A stretch of 49,644 bases of DNA from Pseudomonadota bacterium (GTDB lineage: Bacteria; CALINM01), in assembly GCA_026418415.1 (NCBI GenBank), contig JAOABK010000013.1:1-49644 (forward strand), written 5' to 3'. Position numbers and translations under genes: made by a program. Below are positions 34,588 to 48,138 of this stretch, in pieces. Numbering within the stretch: the stretch's first letter is position 1; the number at the start of each line of letters is the position of its first letter. The notes below the pieces were generated by a model. That model worked only from the letters and a program-made list of their open reading frames with translations. It was not told the DNA's origin and searched no databases.

Positions 34588-35460
34588 ATGGCAATACTTG
34601 TCGATAAAAATACAAGACTTATTACTCAGGGAATTACTGGAAGTGCAGGACTCTTTCACTCAAAGGGTTGTAGAGATTATGGTACTAATGTTGTTGGTGG
34701 AGTTACACCAGGTAAGGGTGGAACAACGGTAGAGGGTTTTCCAGTATTCGATACAGTTTATGAGGCCGTAAGAAAGACTGGAGCCAATGCATCAATGATT
34801 TTTGTTCCTGCTCCTTTTGCGGCAGATGCAATACTCGAGGCAATAGACGCTGGGATTGAGATAATTGTATGTATTACAGAAGGTATACCAGTGCTTGATA
34901 TGGTTAAGGTTAAGAATGTGCTAAATAATAGTAAAAGCAGACTTATTGGTCCAAATTGTCCTGGGATTATTACACCAGGGCAGTGTAAGATTGGAATAAT
35001 GCCAGGTTATATTCATAAAGAGGGGAGTATTGGTTTAGTTTCAAGATCTGGAACACTAACCTATGAAGCGGTATACCAATTGACTCAACTTGGTTTAGGG
35101 CAATCGACATGTGTAGGTATTGGTGGTGATCCAATAAATGGAACAAATTTTATTGATTGCATAAAGTTATTTAATGAAGATCCTCAGACTGAGGCAATTA
35201 TAATGATCGGTGAGATTGGTGGAACAGCAGAAGAAGAGGCCGCTTTGTATATTAAAGAAAATGTAAAAAAACCAGTTGTTGGTTATATTGCTGGTCTAAC
35301 AGCTCCAAAAGGTAAAAGGATGGGACATGCAGGAGCAATAATAAGTGGTGGTAAAGGTACAGCTTCCGAAAAAATTAAGGCTATGGAAGAAGCGGGAATT
35401 GTTGTGGCAAAAAGCCCTGCAGATATTGGGATTACGATGAAGCAGGTGTTAAAAAGGTGA
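34588..35460 (+). CDS. sucD: Succinyl-CoA synthetase alpha subunit
   Basis: CoA-binding alpha subunit carrying the phospho-histidine intermediate. The 290 aa show the Rossmann CoA-binding start ([20 protein letters not shown]), [23 protein letters not shown], the CoA-ligase segment [16 protein letters not shown], and the active-site histidine in [26 protein letters not shown] precedes the ATG. Its stop is only 7 bp from the end of the convergent minus-strand gene, so any terminator must lie inside coding sequence. Confidence 0.97.
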
Positions 35461-35467
35461 AAGCAAT

Positions 35468-36898
35468 TTATCTTATTATTTTTTGAAGATAGATAATTCT
35501 TTCCCTTGATTTTTTACCAATTTCGTTATTTGGGTTTATATTTATTTGCTGGGAATAGGCTTTATATGCCATTTGTATGTCTCCTAATTTCTCATAACAA
35601 AATCCCAAATATCCATACACTTCTTCATGTTTAGGAAATACATTTGCAAAGGCAATGAAATAATCTTTTGCTCTCCTATAGTTTCCTGCTTCATAATTGC
35701 TAAGACCTGCAAAATAATGGGAAACCATATCATTTGGGTAGAGCTTTATTGCCTTTTCAAATTGTCTTATAGCATCAAAATAGCTTTTTTGAGAATATCT
35801 AAAAAATCCCATCGCTCTAATGGCTGGTTGATATTCACTATCTAAATCAAGGGCAATTTTTAAGTATTTCTCAGCCATATCATTTAAGCCCCTTTTCATA
35901 TAAATCAGTCCTTTTAAGGTATAAAAAGCTGGTTGAGTTTGGTCTATGCCCAAGGCAAGATCTAATTCTTTATCCGCATCATTTATCTTATTCTCTCTAA
36001 ACAGTCTGTATGCTTTGTCGTAATGTTGAATATAAGCTCTATTAATTGATCTCAATCTTTCATTCATTTTTAAAAAGATATCTCTATTTGTACCATCTCC
36101 ATATAAACTTCTTACAGGATACTGTTCTGAAATGCTTTTTAGTTCCTCAATTCTTATTGATGATCTTGGATGAGTGGATAATAGATCTTCAAAAAATCCT
36201 CTTTCTCTGCTTTCTTTACCAATTTCTTTAAGATAATTATTAACAGAAATTTCTAAATTTTTATGTGCCTGAATAGCGTTTTCTGGTCTATAACCTATCT
36301 TAGTCATGTATTCTAAACCCAATCTATCTGCTTCAAGTTCATCTTGCCTACTATATTTCAAAAGCAGTAAAGTCCCTCCTATACTTCCAGCTTCAAGGGC
36401 TAATCCTGCATAATCCTTTCCTGATAGAAAAATTCCTGCAGTTGTTAATCCTAACTGGGCGAGGATTCCATATGTTGTTTGTCTTGCTGAATGTCTTGCT
36501 GTGACATGACCAAGTTCATGACCCATGATATAGGCAAATTCCGCCTCACTTTCAAGGTTTGCTAAAAGTCCTCTTGTTATTACAATATATCCTGGCACAG
36601 CCCATGCATTTGGGACAGAGCTATTTTGTATGGCGAACTGAATGGGCAAGTTGCTTCTATGTGAGTTTTCATGCAATCTTTTAACAATACTTTCTAAGTA
36701 TTTTTTTAGTTCTGGGTCTTTAAATTCGCCTCCTCCACCTTCTGCTTCCCATAAAGCATTGGGATAAAAATTTTTCCCCATCTCAATTTCCTGAGATTCA
36801 GTAATGAGAACAAGTTCTTTTTTGCCAGTAACAGGATTAGTAGCGCAGGCGCTAATCAATATTAATAAAAAGAGAAAAGCCAATAATTTTTTAAACAT
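35468..36898 (-). CDS. M48-family metallopeptidase lipoprotein with TPR repeats (BepA/YfgC-like)
   Basis: Periplasmic zinc protease of the type that maintains outer-membrane proteins. I start at 36898, where the protein begins MFKKLLAFLFLLILISAC: a signal peptide with lipobox ISAC and lipidated Cys18. The open frame upstream runs into the preceding gene. The 476 aa have the zinc site HELGH (His127, Glu128, His131) and the third ligand in ELEADRLGL (about Glu189), then TPR repeats from about residue 300 (PAFYTLKGLIYMKRGLNDMA; SYFDAIRQFEKAIKLYPND). The layout matches BepA. It lies 7 bp downstream of the tautomerase gene. Confidence 0.9.
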   Translation of the reverse strand: MFKKLLAFLFLLILISACATNPVTGKKELVLITESQEIEMGKNFYPNALWEAEGGGGEFKDPELKKYLESIVKRLHENSHRSNLPIQFAIQNSSVPNAWAVPGYIVITRGLLANLESEAEFAYIMGHELGHVTARHSARQTTYGILAQLGLTTAGIFLSGKDYAGLALEAGSIGGTLLLLKYSRQDELEADRLGLEYMTKIGYRPENAIQAHKNLEISVNNYLKEIGKESRERGFFEDLLSTHPRSSIRIEELKSISEQYPVRSLYGDGTNRDIFLKMNERLRSINRAYIQHYDKAYRLFRENKINDADKELDLALGIDQTQPAFYTLKGLIYMKRGLNDMAEKYLKIALDLDSEYQPAIRAMGFFRYSQKSYFDAIRQFEKAIKLYPNDMVSHYFAGLSNYEAGNYRRAKDYFIAFANVFPKHEEVYGYLGFCYEKLGDIQMAYKAYSQQININPNNEIGKKSRERIIYLQKIIR

Positions 36899-36905
36899 AA
36901 ATGTT

Positions 36906-37109
36906 TTATAACCCCTGTTTTCTCCTTTCTGTGACACTAATTCCACCTATCCCCCAATTATCGGTGTCAACTTCTTCAATTATAACCACAGTCGTTTGAG
37001 GATTCTTACCTAATACATCTACTAAAAGCTGTGTTGCGCCTTTAATTAATTCTGCTTTCTTTTCTGCTGACACATTGTCCTTTGCAATTTTGATGTTTAC
37101 AAGTGGCAT
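36906..37109 (-). CDS. 4-oxalocrotonate tautomerase-family protein (DmpI-like)
   Basis: A 67 aa small tautomerase whose mature N-terminus would be the catalytic Pro1 (MPLVNIKIAK). Compared with classical 4-OT, the position of Arg11 is Asn and that of Arg39 is Val (TTVVIIEEV), while the NWGIGG hydrophobic-wall motif and VTERR tail are kept. This combination recalls the DmpI/HP0924-like subgroup. The physiological substrate is unknown. AAAAAGGAGGAAATA precedes the ATG on the minus strand, a strong Shine-Dalgarno. The protease gene downstream is probably co-transcribed. Confidence 0.88.
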   Translation of the reverse strand: MPLVNIKIAKDNVSAEKKAELIKGATQLLVDVLGKNPQTTVVIIEEVDTDNWGIGGISVTERRKQGL

Positions 37110-37232
37110 TATTTCCTCCTTTTTCTTTATATTTTACCAAAAAAAATCTTATTCAGAAAGATTCCCCTTTCTTTCAAACTTTAATTTTTTTTTTATTTAT
37201 AGTATATTATAACTTCTTTAAAGGGAGTAATA
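37110..37232. promoter_or_regulatory. Divergent promoter region (tautomerase leftward, heptose kinase rightward)
   Basis: This 123 bp A/T-rich gap separates divergent genes. On the minus strand, TAAAAT (reading from 37136 to 37131) is a plausible -10. On the plus strand, overlapping TATATT/TATTAT at 37203-37210 is a plausible -10, followed by the Shine-Dalgarno AAGGGAG for ATG 37233. Convincing -35 hexamers are not seen on either side. No RNA gene or small gene is recognised here. Confidence 0.35.
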
Positions 37233-38237
37233 ATGAAATCGTTGCATAAATTATTAGAAAAATTCAAAGAAGCCAATGTACTTGTAATAGGTGATCTAAT
37301 TCTTGATCACTATATCTGGGGTAAGGTAGATAGAATATCACCTGAAGCACCAGTTCCAGTAGTCAGGGTTACTAAAGAAAGCTTTATGGCGGGTGGATGT
37401 GCCAATGTTGCACTGAATATTCGGGCTTTAAAGGGTAAAGTTAGCATTTGTGGAGTTGTGGGTAAAGACCAATATGGCCGAAAATTATTATCCCTTCTTG
37501 AGAAAAACGGCATTGATAGTACAGGTGTTTTCATAGATAGTAGAATAGGGACTATTAGAAAGACAAGGGTTATTGCTCATCATCAGCATGTAGTAAGAGT
37601 TGATAGAGAAGAGATTTTTACAATTGAAGAAAATATTTTGAGAGAATTAGATAATTTTTTTAAAGAAAGAAAGAGTGTTTATAATGTAATTATTTTTTCT
37701 GATTATGCAAAGGGTTTTATAAACAATAAGCTTGTTGATAGTGTTAAGAAGAACTTTAAGGAATCATTTTTTTTAGCAGATCCAAAGGTTAAAAATATCT
37801 CGCTATTTAAAAATTTCTATTTAATTACTCCAAATAGAAAGGAAGCTATGGAAGCTGTAGGTATGGAGGATAGGGGAAGGGAAGAGGATATAATTAGTGC
37901 TGGCAAAAAACTATTAAAAGATCATTCTTTAAAAAATCTTCTTATTACAAGAGGCGAAGAGGGGATGAGCCTTTTTAGTGGGAATAATCATATTAAGATT
38001 CCAACCTTTGCCCAAGAGGTCTTTGATGTAACTGGTGCAGGCGATACTGTTATTGCAACAATAGGAGCTGGGCTAAGTTCTGGAATACCTTTAATTAAAA
38101 GTTGCATAATTGCAAATCTTGCTGCATCTGTTGTTGTTGGCAAAGTGGGAACCGCTGTAGCAATCCCAGAAGAAATTGAAGATAGGTGGAAAAAATTAGA
38201 TCCCAATGTTAAAGATACCTTAGAAAGATATTTATGA
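37233..38237 (+). CDS. rfaE1: D-glycero-beta-D-manno-heptose-7-phosphate kinase
   Basis: PfkB-family kinase making heptose-1,7-bisphosphate for the LPS inner core. The 334 aa include VIGDLILDHYIWGKVDRISP, EAPVPVV, the substrate loop FMAGGCANVALNIRALKG and the catalytic DVTGAGDTVIA anion-hole motif. Only the kinase domain is present; the nucleotidyltransferase half of HldE is missing, so a separate RfaE2 must exist elsewhere. The presence of this gene argues for a diderm with LPS. AAGGGAG precedes the start. DUF4416 overlaps its stop by 4 bp. Confidence 0.93.
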   Translation: MKSLHKLLEKFKEANVLVIGDLILDHYIWGKVDRISPEAPVPVVRVTKESFMAGGCANVALNIRALKGKVSICGVVGKDQYGRKLLSLLEKNGIDSTGVFIDSRIGTIRKTRVIAHHQHVVRVDREEIFTIEENILRELDNFFKERKSVYNVIIFSDYAKGFINNKLVDSVKKNFKESFFLADPKVKNISLFKNFYLITPNRKEAMEAVGMEDRGREEDIISAGKKLLKDHSLKNLLITRGEEGMSLFSGNNHIKIPTFAQEVFDVTGAGDTVIATIGAGLSSGIPLIKSCIIANLAASVVVGKVGTAVAIPEEIEDRWKKLDPNVKDTLERYL

Positions 38238-40244: not shown

Positions 40245-40433
40245 ATGGCAAGAATTACTATTGAAGATTGTCTTGAGGTGATACCAAACAGGTTTACCCT
40301 TTGTCACATTGCTGCTAAAAGGGCAAAAATGCTTAAGAAAGGCGCTTCACCTCTGGTTCAATCAAAAAATCGTGAGATTGTAACAGCCCTTAGGGAAATA
40401 GCTGGAAAAAAAATAACTTTAAAAAAGGAATAG
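40245..40433 (+). CDS. rpoZ: RNA polymerase omega subunit
   Basis: A 62 aa omega subunit that helps fold and hold beta-prime and forms part of a ppGpp site in proteobacterial RNA polymerase. The pattern MARITIEDCLEVIPNRFTLC, AAKRAKMLKKG and NREIVTALREIAGKKI is diagnostic. CTGGAGG (40231-40237) precedes the ATG. It lies between gmk and rel, the classical order. Confidence 0.94.
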   Translation: MARITIEDCLEVIPNRFTLCHIAAKRAKMLKKGASPLVQSKNREIVTALREIAGKKITLKKE

Positions 40434-40443
40434 ATTATTTTTT

Positions 40444-40500
40444 ATGTTCGGATATGACCATGTAAAAGAGTATGGAGATAATATCACATGGTCAGATTAA
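40444..40500 (+). other. Possible 18-codon leader reading frame overlapping the rel start
   Basis: ATG 40444 opens a frame of 18 codons (peptide begins MFGYDHVKEY) ending in TAA 40498-40500, ten bases inside rel and in another frame. It runs through the whole inverted repeat around the rel start. Its Shine-Dalgarno is poor (AAGGA about 14 bases upstream, at the end of rpoZ). It may be a chance frame; it is listed because of its position over the rel initiation region. Confidence 0.2.
40455..40494 (+). promoter_or_regulatory. Inverted repeat enclosing the rel ribosome-binding site and start codon
   Basis: TGACCATGT (40455-40463) and ACATGGTCA (40486-40494) are perfect 9 bp inverted copies separated by 22 bases. 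In mRNA the right arm contains the rel AUG (40488-40490) and the loop contains the Shine-Dalgarno GGAG (40474-40477). The hairpin would hide the start codon while exposing the Shine-Dalgarno. As DNA it could instead be an operator. A translational control element is an inference. Confidence 0.45.
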
Positions 40501-42614
40501 ATGAAATTTTGGAGAAAGTATCAGAATATAATCCAAATGCTAACTTAGATATAATTAAAAAAGCTTATATCTTTTCAGCAAGGGTTCACAAAGATCAGGT
40601 AAGATTATCTGGTGAACCCTATCTTAATCATCCTCTTGAAACTGCATATATTCTTGCTGAATTAAAAATGGATGAGTATTGTATATCTGCTGGTCTTTTG
40701 CATGATGTTTTAGAGGATACACTTACAACAAGGGAAGAGCTTATAAAAGAATTTGGAGAAGAGATAACTCAACTTGTAGATGGTGTGACTAAAATAGGTA
40801 AAATCCAATACGCTAGTCATTTAGAACGCAAAGCAGAGAATTATCGTAAGATGCTTATTGCAATGGCTAAAGATATTAGGGTTATTATTATTAAGCTTGC
40901 TGACCGTCTTCATAATATGAGGACATTAGACTTCCACAGTCCCGATAAACAGGAGAGCATATCAAAGGAAACTGTTGAAATATATGCTCCAATTGCCCAT
41001 AGACTTGGAATGTCAAGATTAAAAGGAGAATTAGAAGATCTAGCCTTTAAATACTTAAAACCTGATATATACAAAGAGCTAAAAGAAGCGGTTGAAAAAA
41101 AGGTAAAGGAAAGAGAAAAATATGTTGAAAAAGTTAAGGATATTATAAAAAAAGTCCTTCTTGAACATAATATAAAAGCTGAAGTTTCAGGAAGGCCCAA
41201 ACACATAAGCAGTATATATCAGAAAATGGAAAGACAAAAAGTGGGATTAGATCAAATCTATGATCTAATTGCATTTAGAGTGATTGTTGGGAGTGTCAGA
41301 GAATGTTATGAAGTATTAGGTATATTACATTCCCTTTGGAGACCTATACCAGGAAGGTTTAAAGATTACATAGGGGTACCTAAGCCTAATATGTATCAAT
41401 CTCTTCATACTACTGTAATAGGCCCTGAAGGTGAGAGGATTGAAATACAAATTAGAACTGAAGATATGCATAGGATAGCAGAATATGGTGTTGCAGCACA
41501 CTGGAAGTATAAGGAAAGCAAAGGAAGGACTGCTAAAGATGATGAAGAGAGGTTTGCTTGGTTGAGACAGATACTGGAATGGCAACAGGAAACTAAAGAT
41601 GCAAGGGATTTTATAGAATCTATAAAAACAGAATTATTTACCGATGAAGTATATGTTTTTACTCCCAAAGGTGATGTTAAAGTACTACCAAAGGGAAGTA
41701 CACCAGTTGATTTTGCTTATGCTATACATTCTGATGTTGGGAATCATTGTGCAGGGGCAAAGGTTAATGGAAAGATTGTGCCTTTAAAACATGAATTGGT
41801 AACAGGCGATATTGTAGAAATAATTACTTCTCCTCAGCAAAAACCATCACCCGATTGGTTGAAGTTTGTTAAAACATCGAAAGCTAAGGCAAGGATTAAA
41901 CAGGTATTAAGACAACAACAGTACGAAACAAGTATTGATATTGGTAAAGAACTTATAGATAAAGCGTTAAAAAAACACGAGTTAAGTTTAGCTAAATTAA
42001 CGAAAAATGAAATTAATCAGCTATTAAAAAAGTTCAATCTTAAGAGTGAAGAAGAACTCTTTTCCAGTGTTGGTTTTGGAAGGATATCGCCTATTCAGGT
42101 ATTAGGTGAAGTCATACCCGAAGATAAAAAACAAGAAATAAAAATAGTTGAGTCAACAGTTAATAAAGAAGTTTCAAAAGAAGGCATAATAATTAAGGAA
42201 TTAGATGGTGTATTAATAAAATTCGCTAAATGTTGTAATCCAATCCCAGGAGAACCTATTTTGGGATTTATTTCAAGAGGTAAAGGGATAACCATACACT
42301 CTAAAGAATGCCCGAATATCTTAAACGCTGATCCTCAAAGGATAATTGAAGCTTCATGGGAACCGGGGAAAAAGATTCTAAGGCAAATAAAACTTAGGGT
42401 GGAGTGTGTTGATGAACCAGGGCTTCTTTCAAATATTTCTTCTTCAATATCTGCACAGAATGTTAATATTTCAGAGGCAAAGATTACTACTACTGAAGAC
42501 AAAAGAGCAATTTGTGACTTTAGCGTTCAGATTACAGATACAAATCTTCTATCCAAACTTATTAGTGGTATAGAAAAAGTAAAGGGTGTTTATTCAGTTA
42601 CACGCTTAAAGTAA
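40488..42614 (+). CDS. rel: Bifunctional (p)ppGpp synthetase/hydrolase, Rel/SpoT type
   Basis: Makes and degrades the stringent-response alarmone. The 708 aa have an intact HD hydrolase domain (LLHDVLEDT, His72-Asp73; KLADRLHNMRTL), a synthetase domain with GRFKDYIGVPKPNMYQSLHT (the RxKD form seen in bifunctional enzymes), a TGS domain (VYVFTPKGDVKVLPKGSTPV), a zinc-finger/CC domain (KFAKCCNPIPGEPILGF) and a C-terminal ACT domain. The start codon lies in a 9 bp inverted-repeat arm, suggesting translational control. The 199 bp after the gene hold no recognised feature. Confidence 0.96.
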   Translation: MVRLNEILEKVSEYNPNANLDIIKKAYIFSARVHKDQVRLSGEPYLNHPLETAYILAELKMDEYCISAGLLHDVLEDTLTTREELIKEFGEEITQLVDGVTKIGKIQYASHLERKAENYRKMLIAMAKDIRVIIIKLADRLHNMRTLDFHSPDKQESISKETVEIYAPIAHRLGMSRLKGELEDLAFKYLKPDIYKELKEAVEKKVKEREKYVEKVKDIIKKVLLEHNIKAEVSGRPKHISSIYQKMERQKVGLDQIYDLIAFRVIVGSVRECYEVLGILHSLWRPIPGRFKDYIGVPKPNMYQSLHTTVIGPEGERIEIQIRTEDMHRIAEYGVAAHWKYKESKGRTAKDDEERFAWLRQILEWQQETKDARDFIESIKTELFTDEVYVFTPKGDVKVLPKGSTPVDFAYAIHSDVGNHCAGAKVNGKIVPLKHELVTGDIVEIITSPQQKPSPDWLKFVKTSKAKARIKQVLRQQQYETSIDIGKELIDKALKKHELSLAKLTKNEINQLLKKFNLKSEEELFSSVGFGRISPIQVLGEVIPEDKKQEIKIVESTVNKEVSKEGIIIKELDGVLIKFAKCCNPIPGEPILGFISRGKGITIHSKECPNILNADPQRIIEASWEPGKKILRQIKLRVECVDEPGLLSNISSSISAQNVNISEAKITTTEDKRAICDFSVQITDTNLLSKLISGIEKVKGVYSVTRLK

Positions 42615-42813: not shown

Positions 42814-44844
42814 ATGCAGATACCCTTTTATAAAAAGCTTTGGTTTGAGATTCTAATCAAAATAGGGATAGTGATTGGGATAATCACTATTGCTTCTTTT
42901 TTTTATATTACCTATCACCAAAAGAGAGCTATTTTAGCCCATGAAAGAGATTTCATTGTTAAATTAAGTGAAACAATCGAAAAATCAATGTATTACAGCA
43001 TGGAAAAAAACGATTTTTCCATAATAAAACAAATGATTCAAGATATTACTCGTGGTAATGAACATGTTAAATCAATAAAATTAATTGATAAAAGTGGGAA
43101 AGTAATAATTTCTTCTGATATAAGGGATAATGGTAAAGTATTAGTAAGTAGTGAAGGATTATGTAATTATTGTCATACTGGTAATATACCTAAAAGAGAT
43201 AAATACGCAATAGTTGAAACTGGTGATAATTATAAAGTTGTTAATTTATTATATAATGGGCCTACTTGTTCCATTCATCATTCACCTTCAAAGAAAGTTT
43301 TAGGTGCTATGGTTATTGATGTCTCTGCTGTGTCAGTAAATAGCCTGATTAAAAATAATTTAAAGAGAATGTTATTTACTTCAACAATTGCTCTATTTGC
43401 AATGGTATTTCTTACATTTTTAGTAATAACTCTATTTGTGACATGTCCTATCAAAGATTTAATGAAGGCTATGTTAGATGCTTCTAAGGGTAATATGTCA
43501 GCTGAAGTTAAGATATCCGCAGGTAATGAAATTGGCGTTCTTGCAAAAACTTTTAATTATATGTTAGGCAGGCTTCGAGAGTTGCATGATAATGATGTAG
43601 CGAAGGAAAGGGAAATTGCAAAAATGCAAGAAAGTTTAAGATATAAAGCGGAGCTCGAGACATTGAATGCTCAGTTAAAATCAAGAGTTGTCGAATTAGA
43701 GTCAGCAAATAGGCAAATAGAAATGATGGTTAAGGATATAGAAAATAAGAATTATCATCTCGAGAAAGTTGTTGATAGGCTAAAAATTCTTTATAAAATT
43801 AGTACATCTTTAACCACTGTGGTTGATTCTGATGAGGTAATAAAGCTAATTGTTGAAAAGTCCGCTTCCATAATGAAAGCAAAAATTGCATCTTTAATGT
43901 TAGTTGATAGAGAAAGGAACGAACTCTACATAAAATATGCTATTGGATTACGACCTGAGTTATTAAATGCAAGGGTTAGTATGGAAAATTCAATTTCTGG
44001 TTGGGTCGCAAGGGAAGGTAAGCCACTTATAGTAAAGGATATTGAGGTAGATGAGAGATTTAAAAGGGTAAACAGAGAAACTTATGAAAGTAAATCTCTG
44101 ATTTCCTCTCCAGTAATCATTAAAGGTGAAGTTGTAGGAGTTCTAAATGTTAATAATAAGTTTGATGGTGGTATATTTTCTGAAGATGAGTTAGAGTTAC
44201 TGAATACTTTAGCGGGGCAAACTGCTATATCCTTAGAGAATGCAAAACTTTATGCAGATTTGCAAAAAAGCTATTTTGATACTATAAGAGCTCTTGTTAA
44301 TGCGATAGAGGCAAAAGACAAATATACAAGAGGTCACTCCGAAAGGGTAACCTGTTATTCGCTTGAAATAGGCAAGAGATTAAATTTAGGTCCTAAACAG
44401 ATGGAAGCCTTACAACATGCTGCAATTTTACATGATATTGGTAAAATTGGGACTGATTTGGGTATATTACATAAAAATGGTATGCTAACTAATGATGAAT
44501 TTGAAGTGATAAAGGAACATCCCATAGTTGGTTCTCAGATTATTGAACCAATTAGTTTTCTTAATAATGTTAAAAGAATAGTTACAGAGCATCATGAAAG
44601 ATACGATGGAAAAGGATATCCTCATGGTAAAAAGGGGGAGGAGTTATCATTAGAGGCGAGAATAATTGCGATTACAGATGCATATGATGCTATGACTTCT
44701 GATAGACCATATAGAAAGGCTATGAAAAGTGAAGATGCTATAGCAGAACTAAAAAGATGCGCTGGGAGCCAATTTGATCCCAAACTTGTAGATATTTTTA
44801 TTGAAATTTTAAAAGAAGATCCTTCTTGTAAATATATCTACTAA
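42814..44844 (+). CDS. Membrane HD-GYP c-di-GMP phosphodiesterase with periplasmic c-type heme motif
   Basis: A 676 aa sensor-effector: a membrane helix (about 10-32), a periplasmic domain with the heme-c site CNYCH (Cys117, Cys120, His121) and a second altered site CSIHH (152-156, Cys replaced by His) before VLGAMVIDVS, a second helix (about 188-210), HAMP, a coiled-coil, a GAF domain (about 330-480), and an HD-GYP domain with HDIGKIGTDLG and EHHERYDGKGYPHG, so phosphodiesterase activity is expected. It probably senses redox state or a gaseous ligand through covalent heme and lowers c-di-GMP. The ATG lacks a clear Shine-Dalgarno. Its stop overlaps the convergent CooT stop. Confidence 0.88.
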   Translation: MQIPFYKKLWFEILIKIGIVIGIITIASFFYITYHQKRAILAHERDFIVKLSETIEKSMYYSMEKNDFSIIKQMIQDITRGNEHVKSIKLIDKSGKVIISSDIRDNGKVLVSSEGLCNYCHTGNIPKRDKYAIVETGDNYKVVNLLYNGPTCSIHHSPSKKVLGAMVIDVSAVSVNSLIKNNLKRMLFTSTIALFAMVFLTFLVITLFVTCPIKDLMKAMLDASKGNMSAEVKISAGNEIGVLAKTFNYMLGRLRELHDNDVAKEREIAKMQESLRYKAELETLNAQLKSRVVELESANRQIEMMVKDIENKNYHLEKVVDRLKILYKISTSLTTVVDSDEVIKLIVEKSASIMKAKIASLMLVDRERNELYIKYAIGLRPELLNARVSMENSISGWVAREGKPLIVKDIEVDERFKRVNRETYESKSLISSPVIIKGEVVGVLNVNNKFDGGIFSEDELELLNTLAGQTAISLENAKLYADLQKSYFDTIRALVNAIEAKDKYTRGHSERVTCYSLEIGKRLNLGPKQMEALQHAAILHDIGKIGTDLGILHKNGMLTNDEFEVIKEHPIVGSQIIEPISFLNNVKRIVTEHHERYDGKGYPHGKKGEELSLEARIIAITDAYDAMTSDRPYRKAMKSEDAIAELKRCAGSQFDPKLVDIFIEILKEDPSCKYIY

Positions 44845-45032
44845 AAATTTTCAAAGACAACTTTATGGTTTAATAGCGAAATATATTTAATTCTACCCTT
44901 TATTTTGATTTGTTCTCCGAAAATATTTTTTATATACCAATGGTTATCATCCAAAGGGTTAATTACATCTACACTTTCAAGTAGTATTTCTTCCTTATCG
45001 TCTTTTATGATATAAGCATTTGCCTCACACAT
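44841..45032 (-). CDS. CooT-family nickel-binding protein
   Basis: A 63 aa protein beginning Met-Cys (MCEANAYIIKDDKEEILLES) with the family pattern NIFGEQIKIKGRIKYISLLN and VVFENF at the end. In Rhodospirillum CooT, Cys2 of the dimer binds nickel and the protein helps mature CO dehydrogenase. An ideal Shine-Dalgarno (GGAGGTG, plus-strand 45040-45046) overlaps the end of DUF3842, which it follows by 1 bp. No CODH or hydrogenase gene is in the window, so the client is unknown. Its stop codon (TAG) is interleaved with the HD-GYP stop (TAA). Confidence 0.85.
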   Translation of the reverse strand: MCEANAYIIKDDKEEILLESVDVINPLDDNHWYIKNIFGEQIKIKGRIKYISLLNHKVVFENF

Positions 45033-45033
45033 A

Positions 45034-45456
45034 TTATATCACCTCCAATGTTTTAATAATATTCACTAAATCTTTTATATGATGGGGTAAGGGTTCTTTT
45101 TTTTGGCAAGTAATTGTTATGTTTTCTTGTGTAATTGGTATAAGTATTTTTTTTGCCTTTGACATAGATATGGCAGATGCCATTTTATCTGTTAGTTCTC
45201 CTAACATGGAGTTTGCAATTAAAATACTTATTGAACCAATAATGTAATCAACGTCTGAGGAGTTACATACAATAGCATTTTCTCCGGTTGCGCCTTTATT
45301 TGCACCTGCTTCTAGCATAGATAGGGTTGCGATTGAATTAGTGCCAATAGCTATAATTTCAAAACGTTCTTCAAACTCTTTTTTTAGCTCTCTAATTATC
45401 GCATTACCAAATCCACCGCCTTGACCATCAATTACTAATATCTTCTTCTTTTTCAT
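45034..45456 (-). CDS. DUF3842 family protein
   Basis: A 140 aa protein with the DUF3842 layout: a glycine-rich N-terminal nucleotide-binding-like loop ILVIDGQGGGFGNAII, IAIGTNSIATLSMLEAGAN, TGENAIVCNSSDVDYIIGS and LGELTDKMASAIS. The C-terminus contains ILIPITQENITITC. Function is unknown. It overlaps the DUF3343 gene by 29 bp and precedes cooT by 1 bp, so the three are one operon; a role in nickel or sulfur/selenium handling is an inference from these partners. Confidence 0.88.
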   Translation of the reverse strand: MKKKKILVIDGQGGGFGNAIIRELKKEFEERFEIIAIGTNSIATLSMLEAGANKGATGENAIVCNSSDVDYIIGSISILIANSMLGELTDKMASAISMSKAKKILIPITQENITITCQKKEPLPHHIKDLVNIIKTLEVI

Positions 45457-45688
45457 AAATTTTCTCGTAATTTTCCATTTTTTCTATATAAACTTCGTCG
45501 GGTTTTTCTTTTTCTAACGCTGTTAGGATATTTTCTATACTTGTTTTGTTAATTCTTATCGCTAATCCGCAATCGGAACTAAGTTTTCTTGGAACTGGAA
45601 TTGTTTTACTTTCTAATTTTGCTTCTTTTAATAGCTTTTCTGCCTTCATTACTTTGTGTACAGAATTAAAAATGAGTATATAAGCCAT
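45428..45688 (-). CDS. DUF3343 protein (putative Se/S carrier-like)
   Basis: An 86 aa protein with the family signature around a single conserved cysteine: PVPRKLSSDCGLAIRI (Cys40), preceded by YILIFNSVHKVMKAEKLLKE. The family is described as putative Se/S carrier-like because of its resemblance to TusA/YedF-neighbourhood proteins; no activity is proven. It is the first gene of the DUF3343-DUF3842-CooT operon. Its ATG has no clear Shine-Dalgarno and is 45 bp from the divergent DciA-like gene, with which it shares a palindromic -10 element. Confidence 0.85.
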   Translation of the reverse strand: MAYILIFNSVHKVMKAEKLLKEAKLESKTIPVPRKLSSDCGLAIRINKTSIENILTALEKEKPDEVYIEKMENYEKIYEKEEDISN

Positions 45689-45719
45689 ATTCTTAATATT
45701 TAATTTTTTTTTAAAGACT

Positions 45720-45727
45720 ATTATAAT
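45720..45727. promoter_or_regulatory. Palindromic -10 element shared by divergent genes
   Basis: ATTATAAT is its own reverse complement, giving a perfect TATAAT on each strand: 45722-45727 rightward and 45725-45720 leftward. It is the only good promoter element in the 45 bp gap between the divergent DUF3343 and DciA-like genes. Rightward transcription would start at or within a base or two of the DciA-like ATG (45734), implying a leaderless mRNA. Leftward transcription would leave a leader of about 24 bases. No strong -35 is seen on either side. Confidence 0.5.
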
Positions 45728-45733
45728 AAAACC

Positions 45734-46177
45734 ATGTATACATTAAAAGATATAATTTCTAAATTTGTAGAAAAGAATCCTGAAATTTCAAAGCAGTATA
45801 AAATAAATATATATGATCTTTGGAAAGAAGCTGTAGGGGATATAATTTCAGAAATTAGTTACCCCCATCTTCTAAAAGAGGGAAAATTAGAAGTTTTAGT
45901 AAAGAACTCTACATGGATGAATCAATTAAGATTGATGAAATCAGATATAATTAATAAGTTTAATGATATCTTTGGTAGTGAAATATTAAAAGACATAGAA
46001 TATAAGTTAGATAGGAGAAAAAAAAAGCAACAGAGTACTGATAATTATGAAATAGTTAAAAGACCTATTGATGATTCAGTTTTAAAAAGGATAGAAGAAT
46101 CTCTATTTGAAGTTAAAGATAATGAAATCAAAAAGCTTCTAAAAGATATATTTATAAAGTCTTATATTCATCAATGA
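45734..46177 (+). CDS. DUF721/DciA-like protein
   Basis: A 147 aa protein with the DUF721 domain in its first 95 residues: LWKEAVGDIISEISYPHLLK, GKLEVLVKNSTWMNQLRLMK and FNDIFGSEILKDIEYKL. DciA, the widespread replicative-helicase loader/operator, carries this domain, so a role in DnaB loading is likely by family but not shown here. The C-terminal 50 residues are Lys-rich and helical. There is no Shine-Dalgarno upstream, and the -10 element ends 6 bp before the ATG. The last 26 bp overlap the convergent methyltransferase gene. Confidence 0.75.
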   Translation: MYTLKDIISKFVEKNPEISKQYKINIYDLWKEAVGDIISEISYPHLLKEGKLEVLVKNSTWMNQLRLMKSDIINKFNDIFGSEILKDIEYKLDRRKKKQQSTDNYEIVKRPIDDSVLKRIEESLFEVKDNEIKKLLKDIFIKSYIHQ

Positions 46178-46841
46178 AAAGGGGGCTAAGTATTTTTATG
46201 CCAGGATTACCTTTTTTTACCCCTTCAATGATAAATAATTTTCCATCAGAATTTCTTTTAGGATGAATAAATTGTATTACCTTTGGTTCAATATTATTTA
46301 GATTCATTTGCAGTAAAAGCTCATTTAATCTTTCTGAAAGAAATATTAGATATAACTTCCCCTTGTCTTTTAATAATTTTGAGCTTATCTCTACTAAATC
46401 TTTTAGAGAACCTTCTATTTCATGACGTGATCTGGCTTTTAAACTATCTTTACAAATTCTACCTGTGTATGGTTTTCTATACGGTGGATTGGCTAATAAT
46501 ACATCATAACTTGTATAAAGATCTTTATTAATATTTCTATAATCGGAATTTATTATTTCTGTTTTTTCTGTAAGTTTGTTTATTATTATATTTTCTTCCA
46601 TTATTTCACACATTGATTTTTGAAGTTCCACAAAGGTTATTTTTTTTATTTGAGGGAATTTTTTAAGTAGACAAAGTCCAATTACCCCTACTCCAGCGCA
46701 TAGTTCTATAATCTTTGATGAGTTTTTTAGATTTTTGATAAAATTTATAAGATAAAAAGAATCTTCGTTATATCTGTATCCTTCAGAAGGTTGGTAAAGT
46801 TTTAAATTGTATTTTTCAATTTCTTCAAAGGTTCTACTCAT
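46152..46841 (-). CDS. TrmN6-like tRNA1(Val) adenine-N6 methyltransferase
   Basis: A 229 aa class I SAM-dependent methyltransferase of the YfiC/TrmN6 group, which methylates A37 of tRNA-Val in E. coli. Motif I is IIELCAGVGVIGLCLLKKFP (44-63), the acidic loop is TFVELQ, and the N6-adenine catalytic motif is NPPYRK (from 118). The N-terminal YQPSEGYRYNEDSFYL matches the family's 'F..GYRFSLDSLLLA' stretch. It starts inside the DUF1015 stop region (8 bp overlap) without its own Shine-Dalgarno and overlaps the convergent DciA-like gene at its 3' end. Confidence 0.88.
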   Translation of the reverse strand: MSRTFEEIEKYNLKLYQPSEGYRYNEDSFYLINFIKNLKNSSKIIELCAGVGVIGLCLLKKFPQIKKITFVELQKSMCEIMEENIIINKLTEKTEIINSDYRNINKDLYTSYDVLLANPPYRKPYTGRICKDSLKARSRHEIEGSLKDLVEISSKLLKDKGKLYLIFLSERLNELLLQMNLNNIEPKVIQFIHPKRNSDGKLFIIEGVKKGNPGIKILSPLFIDEYKTL

Positions 46842-48138
46842 AAAATGAGTAAATGACTGCTCCAGAGGGTATTTTAGGATAAAAATAAGTAGATTTTTGA
46901 GGCATTGTCTGACCTATTTTTGAAATTTCAGTTAGTTCATTAACATCAGTTGAATTTAGAATGAATCCTATGCTTCCGATTATATTATTTATTTTATTTA
47001 CAACTTCGAAACTATCCTTCTCATAGGATATATTTTTTTGCTTAATCAAGTCCTCTTCAGTAATTTTAAAATAGTTTTTAAGTATTACATAGTATAGTAT
47101 ATTTACATCGAGCTTTTTTAAAACCATTGGAATTTGATCATTATAAAAGGATTCAATTAATTTAAAATCTTTAAGTGTTATTAAAAATAGTGAATCTCTC
47201 ATTACTATTATAAATGAATGAAATTCTCTGTTTTTCTCCATTTCATTTTGAGCAATTTTAAGGTTACTTAAATCAAACTCTTTTATGTGGAAATATTGTT
47301 TTATATAATCTTTGAAATGATTTATATCTATATGAAAATTATGCAGAATTCTATGGGTTGGGAGTATTTTTAAACTTTTGGAGCGTAAATTTGTGAAATA
47401 CATTATTGTGTAATCGGTTTGTTCATTGTTCAAATGCTTTAAATCATTTGCAACTCTTAAAGCTGTTTCATATCTATGATGTCCATCTGCTATATATAAA
47501 GGTTTGTCTTTCATAAAGTTTGATATTTGTTCTATTAAATTGGGGTTTTCAATTTTGTATAGATAGTTTTTAACCTTCTGATAATCAGTGAATTCAAAGT
47601 ATGGTTCAGTATTTTCAATAATTTCCTTTGCAATATTTTCTATGGTGAAAGAATCGTCATCGTATATAGAAAAAACAGCACTAAAGTAAGCCCCACAAGT
47701 TTTTGTAAGAAGATATCTATCTTCTTTTGGTGCTGATTGTGTTTTTTCATGGGGCATAATTGTTTGGGGAGAAAATGATGAAAGTTTATAGACGCCAAAA
47801 AAACCAATTCTTCTCAGGGAATCTGCGTTTTCATTTGTTTTTAGAAAGAAATCTTGAACTAATAAGTAAAAGTTAGGCTTAGGATCTTTTACTAAAATGC
47901 TTTCTTTTTGCCAATTATTAAAATACTCTTTTGCTCGACTGTATACATTGTTTGTTTCATTATCATTTTCGTACCTTTTGCCATAATCTATCCTTATAAA
48001 GTTATAGGGATGTAGTTTGTAAAATTCATCTTGCATTTTTGGGTCTATTATGTCATAAGGCGGAGTTAGAACTTGCGCGAGATCTTTTATTATCTGCTTA
48101 TTATATAGTATTCCTTTAAAGGGCTTGACTATGTTCAC
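46834..48138 (-). CDS. DUF1015 family protein
   Basis: A 434 aa member of DUF1015: VKPFKGILYNK, VLTPPYDIIDP, IRIDYGKRY, IMPHEKTQSAPKEDRYLLTK and the hallmark YIADGHHRYETALRVAND. I start at GTG 48138 because AAAAGGAGG (plus-strand 48143-48151) lies just upstream; an in-frame TTG at 48162 lies inside the preceding gene. Function is unknown. The GHHRYETA motif recalls the G-x-H-R motif of ParB/sulfiredoxin-fold proteins, which is my inference. It lies between GH57 and TrmN6-like genes in one minus-strand unit. Confidence 0.9.
   Translation of the reverse strand: MNIVKPFKGILYNKQIIKDLAQVLTPPYDIIDPKMQDEFYKLHPYNFIRIDYGKRYENDNETNNVYSRAKEYFNNWQKESILVKDPKPNFYLLVQDFFLKTNENADSLRRIGFFGVYKLSSFSPQTIMPHEKTQSAPKEDRYLLTKTCGAYFSAVFSIYDDDSFTIENIAKEIIENTEPYFEFTDYQKVKNYLYKIENPNLIEQISNFMKDKPLYIADGHHRYETALRVANDLKHLNNEQTDYTIMYFTNLRSKSLKILPTHRILHNFHIDINHFKDYIKQYFHIKEFDLSNLKIAQNEMEKNREFHSFIIVMRDSLFLITLKDFKLIESFYNDQIPMVLKKLDVNILYYVILKNYFKITEEDLIKQKNISYEKDSFEVVNKINNIIGSIGFILNSTDVNELTEISKIGQTMPQKSTYFYPKIPSGAVIYSFYE

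Follow-up and report, generated by a model that had tools for sequence, protein, structure and literature searches.

The start codon of rel, a RelA/SpoT family gene in the window (the whole stretch of 49,644 nucleotides analyzed here), falls within one arm of a perfect inverted repeat, and its occlusion by the resulting stem is well supported by folding predictions. We give an even chance to the reading that this is a lineage-specific hairpin that would act, if it has any effect, as a passive brake on translation, operating with no dedicated sensor or leader peptide. A species-specific brake, or else an accident, is the probable nature of the structure; a dedicated rel switch we consider quite unlikely. 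A switch coupled to translation of a short leader frame, as envisaged in the original prediction, is unsupported. The features on which these conclusions rest are collected in Table 1.

Table 1. Coordinates of features at the rpoZ-rel junction and in the 5′ part of rel
Feature	Position	Strand	Description
rpoZ (RNA polymerase omega)	40245..40433	+	TIGR00690; 54 nt upstream of rel
18-codon ATG-to-TAA frame	40444..40500	+	overlaps rel by 13 nt; encodes MFGYDHVKEYGDNITWSD; direct reading
5′ arm of inverted repeat	40455..40463	+	TGACCATGT; direct reading
Shine-Dalgarno GGAG of rel	40474..40477	+	in loop, 10 nt before AUG; direct reading
3′ arm of inverted repeat	40486..40494	+	ACATGGTCA; includes rel AUG and codon 2 (GTC); direct reading
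rel	40488..42614	+	RelA/SpoT family, 708 aa; TIGR00691, 842 bits
Second hairpin	40581..40620	+	9-bp stem plus inner 6-bp helix; arms AGGGTTCAC/GTGAACCCT; 22-nt loop; -16.9 kcal/mol, z -4.21

The gene order yicC-gmk-rpoZ-rel is borne out by NCBIfam matches, and we infer that rpoZ and rel are co-transcribed. The rpoZ stop codon (40431-40433) lies 21 nt 5′ of the stem and 54 nt 5′ of rel. Direct reading places an in-frame TAA (40479-40481) ahead of rel, making the ATG at 40488 the first in-frame start. Rel homologs in other phyla and families begin with the residues M-[V/I]-R (MIRLNEI, MVRLDDI, MIRLNDI); because homologs from other families share this N-terminal peptide, the rel start is not misplaced, and its assignment to ATG 40488 rather than to another codon is confirmed. 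Beyond rel, the window encodes a membrane GAF/HD-GYP protein (42814-44844). Its ortholog in a genome of the same family (G002) is 68% identical and sits on a different contig, so the neighborhood downstream of rel differs between the two. GC skew, steady at 0.2-0.4 elsewhere in the window, is approximately zero at 35001-37500 and 45001-47500, and the latter interval has the lowest G+C content (27%).

The two arms of the repeat are exact reverse complements of 9 bp, and 22 nt of loop lie between them. The 3′ arm contains the rel ATG (40488-40490) and the loop contains GGAG, in full agreement with the layout first proposed. Folded in isolation, the hairpin has a predicted energy of -10.8 kcal/mol (z -2.85), with 3 of 200 shuffled sequences folding equally well, whereas wider stretches of 87 and 146 nt stand out only slightly (z -1.31 and -1.81). 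Stem pairs nevertheless retain a probability of at least 0.99 in stretches of up to 800 nt, and the predicted probability that the rel AUG is unpaired is 0.0006 at 37 °C. The start codon is thus predicted to be base-paired in a stable local stem, as expected of a start-codon-occluding hairpin. The Shine-Dalgarno region, at 0.64 unpaired versus a genome median of 0.47, is more open than that of most genes. Within the 5′ arm there is also a 3-codon frame (ATG ACC ATG TAA, 40454-40465) with a GGA 7 nt upstream, in which ATGTAA (40460-40465) forms a start followed immediately by a stop; this frame is probably a product of chance.

How unusual such a stem is was judged against 679 gene starts, predicted by a simple heuristic in 821 kb of contigs from the same genome, and against 3000 dinucleotide shuffles in which the ATG was kept. 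Stems of at least 9 bp at the AUG arise in 12 of the 3000 shuffles and at 6 of the 679 starts, from which about 8 would be expected per 2000 genes. With about 45 gene starts per window, we estimate that approximately 0.2 stems of this length would occur in each, which makes the rel stem uncommon, though no great surprise in something chosen by eye. In terms of inaccessibility, the rel AUG ranks first among the 679 starts when windows of -40 to +40 or larger are folded (second at 55 °C in one window) and 14th when only -25 to +25 is folded, since the stem does not fit that interval; these ranks overstate significance because the hairpin was selected for its striking appearance. The arrangement of a Shine-Dalgarno in the loop and an AUG in the 3′ arm, counted for stems of 6 bp or more, is found at 20 of the 679 starts, among which rel is the strongest in length and G+C. 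A perfect stem also requires GTC at codon 2, which encodes 7.6% of Val residues across the genes sampled. This offers weak evidence, at most a hint, of selection, as one codon with such a frequency is too common to carry weight.

These frequencies bear directly on the possibility that the repeat arose by chance and leaves Rel unaffected, being opened by ribosomes or by the growth temperature, or being incomplete in a rel transcript that starts within the spacer. We regard this explanation as possible, if somewhat doubtful. The number of comparable stems in shuffled and genomic sequence favors it, as does a hairpin without conservation (see below). A pair of promoter-like hexamers (40454-40482) would put a transcript start near the AUG, and a promoter within the spacer, if it drives rel, would remove the 5′ arm; hexamer pairs of this kind occur at chance density (25 found versus 29.5 expected). 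Weighing against an accident are the accessibility of the rel AUG, least or second least of the 679 starts in windows of at least 80 nt, and the uncommon Val codon used by the stem.

A second hairpin lies farther into rel (Table 1). It is stronger than the start-site hairpin and identical to it in arm and loop length (9 bp and 22 nt), and its sequence overlaps that of the conserved HKDQVRLSGEPY motif. The 821 kb contain 51 perfect repeats whose arms span 9 bp or more and include at least 4 G/C, with loops of 3-30 nt; the window has two of them, both inside or at the start of rel. Nineteen repeats in the 821 kb have long loops, and we estimate that finding a pair this close anywhere in the sample is approximately a 5% event. 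The second hairpin is not conserved: 5 of its 9 pairs can form in G002, the mean over 43 loci is 4.9 of 9, and all nine are present in the window only.

The comparison among relatives covered three members of the family (G000, G001 and G002), the next kin in the genome set being related at the domain level only, and a sample of rel loci, 30 taken from whole genomes and 24 from genome contigs, in which the starts of distant loci were assigned heuristically. Across these 30 and 24 loci, the start-site hairpin was seen nowhere but in the window. The one family relative with the locus is G002, whose Rel is 73% identical and whose rpoZ-rel spacer measures 72 nt. This spacer aligns to that of the window by A+T-rich bases only; at the G002 rel start, no stem covers the start codon (2 bp), a Shine-Dalgarno and a leader frame are both missing, and the AUG is open (0.69 unpaired). 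The G002 spacer (locus L002, about 1420-1494) carries a repeat of its own, AATAGC/GCTATT, upstream of the rel start. Among approximately 50 rel loci from other phyla, no AUG is as occluded as that of the window, the lowest value being approximately 0.015 unpaired with heuristic starts. In G001, a member of the same genus, searches for rel, gmk, rpoZ, yicC and the spacer DNA found none of the five. Given that this assembly comprises 240 contigs and is 91% complete, an assembly gap is the most likely cause. A 35-base G001 match at C195 belongs to an unrelated gene.

With no stem in G002 or in the sampled distant rel loci, the repeat is not conserved at the family level, an outcome that the original prediction had itself named as counting against it. 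Nor do G002 and the more distant rel loci provide the shared structure that marks a conserved cis-regulatory RNA of rel. Rfam returned no match at the gathering score and, on the opposite strand, a single hit of chance level (E 0.29); a literature search covering mainly open-access papers turned up no leader hairpin described for rel or relA.

The symmetry of the repeat could instead reflect a DNA operator, in which two inverted TGACCATGT half-sites are bound by a regulator. The symmetry is indeed perfect, and the arm centers are 31 bp apart, or about three helical turns. However, an exact-repeat search of G000, G001 and G002 recovered the paired repeat in no place other than the window, the half-site occurs 8 times in 821 kb versus 3-5 expected and mostly singly, and the repeat is positioned inside a probable operon and over a start codon. 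We therefore view an operator as highly improbable.

The 18-codon frame was proposed to run through the hairpin and to couple Rel synthesis to ribosomes translating it or arriving from rpoZ. The frame exists as described: it opens with the ATG at 40444, 10 nt after the rpoZ stop, and its TAA (40498-40500) ends 10 bases inside rel. Frames this long are present at 42 of the 679 genome starts and in 348 of the 3000 shuffles, however, so the leader frame is not above chance. It has no initiation signal at normal spacing, the nearest Shine-Dalgarno-like sequence being an AAGGA (40425-40429) located 14 nt from the ATG. Both properties by which a uORF would be recognized, an initiation signal of its own and a frame above chance, are thus missing from 40444-40500, and the 18-codon frame is probably a chance occurrence.

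A terminating ribosome reaches approximately 12-15 nt past its P site. Judging from this footprint, ribosomes that end rpoZ would halt approximately 10 nt short of the stem and, because rpoZ ends 21 nt before it, should not melt it. The 54-nt distance to rel is also unfavorable: as measured in E. coli and H. volcanii, reinitiation breaks down once the gap reaches approximately 20-40 nt (PMC10666635). Among sources of upstream translation, then, only the leader frame itself could couple to rel. Such coupling would involve reinitiation after rpoZ at ATG 40444, opening of the stem by translation of the 18 codons and a second reinitiation at the rel AUG in the 13-nt overlap. The geometry permits ribosomes on the leader frame to melt the stem, with 10 nt between the rpoZ stop and ATG 40444 and a leader stop 10 nt inside rel, and unfolding of a start-site hairpin by upstream ribosomes is an established mode of control, as in the MS2 coat-lysis and f1 VII-IX gene pairs (PMC12548453). 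What speaks against it is that frames of this length run across 6% of starts and turn up in 12% of shuffles, that the leader has no Shine-Dalgarno at normal spacing and is absent from G002, and that coupling strength drops strongly with distance (PMC10666635). We consider this route unlikely. A broader reading, in which Rel would be tuned by its own mRNA through an AUG hairpin (perhaps together with the second hairpin) that is opened by ribosomes on the 18-codon frame, such that output follows rpoZ translation, seems to us a little less probable again.

If the start-site hairpin acts as a passive brake, we envisage a mechanism in which the stem would hide the rel AUG while the Shine-Dalgarno is displayed in the loop, where a 30S subunit could bind and remain until the stem opens (standby initiation). 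Any net effect would consist of lower basal synthesis of Rel under a brake that weakens with temperature; we infer both the standby mechanism and the size of the brake. Predicted hairpin energies are -10.8, -8.7, -6.1 and -4.8 kcal/mol at 37 °C, 45 °C, 55 °C and 60 °C, respectively. On the question of a thermometer, predicted pairing is still above 0.95 at 75 °C despite this drop in energy. Data for the MS2 coat hairpin have been fitted by ln(1/E-1) = -13.8 - beta*dG (PMC9894550). Our own application of this fit to the rel hairpin gives approximately 3% of full expression at 37 °C, rising to approximately half at 45 °C and to a nearly full level at 55 °C, with the caveat that the parameters derive from E. 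coli and from a hairpin containing both Shine-Dalgarno and AUG. As to growth temperature, the usual formula converts the amino-acid index of 0.424 to approximately 62 °C, an estimate that may be misleading when a genome is rich in A+T, and the 16S G+C of G002 is 56%. Depending on this temperature, the brake may be strong or negligible; the hairpin might matter little if the organism is thermophilic.

Because Rel output sets (p)ppGpp levels, a brake at its start codon, if real, would be a simple way to set the basal stringent response. Start-codon hairpins are already well known as a class, and the rel hairpin would be a local detail unless coupling were established by experiment, because all that can be tested places it in a single uncultured lineage.

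Translation attenuation leaders of the ermC type also combine a short frame with a nearby hairpin in which a start site is hidden. The rel leader differs in that no stall sequence, alternative fold or inducer was identified and in that the frame overlaps the gene itself. The MS2 coat-lysis and f1 VII-IX pairs are also similar in layout: an upstream frame likewise runs through a hairpin covering a downstream start (PMC12548453). In those pairs the upstream frame is a gene, whereas upstream of rel it is an 18-codon frame of chance frequency, and rpoZ stops before the hairpin. A third point of comparison is the initiator hairpin of the MS2 coat gene, which contains both the Shine-Dalgarno and the AUG and is experimentally proven, while the rel hairpin is a prediction that holds the Shine-Dalgarno in a large loop. 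Like the rel structure, it is a hairpin at the start codon, and under translational standby its stability sets the frequency of initiation (de Smit and van Duin; PMC9894550).
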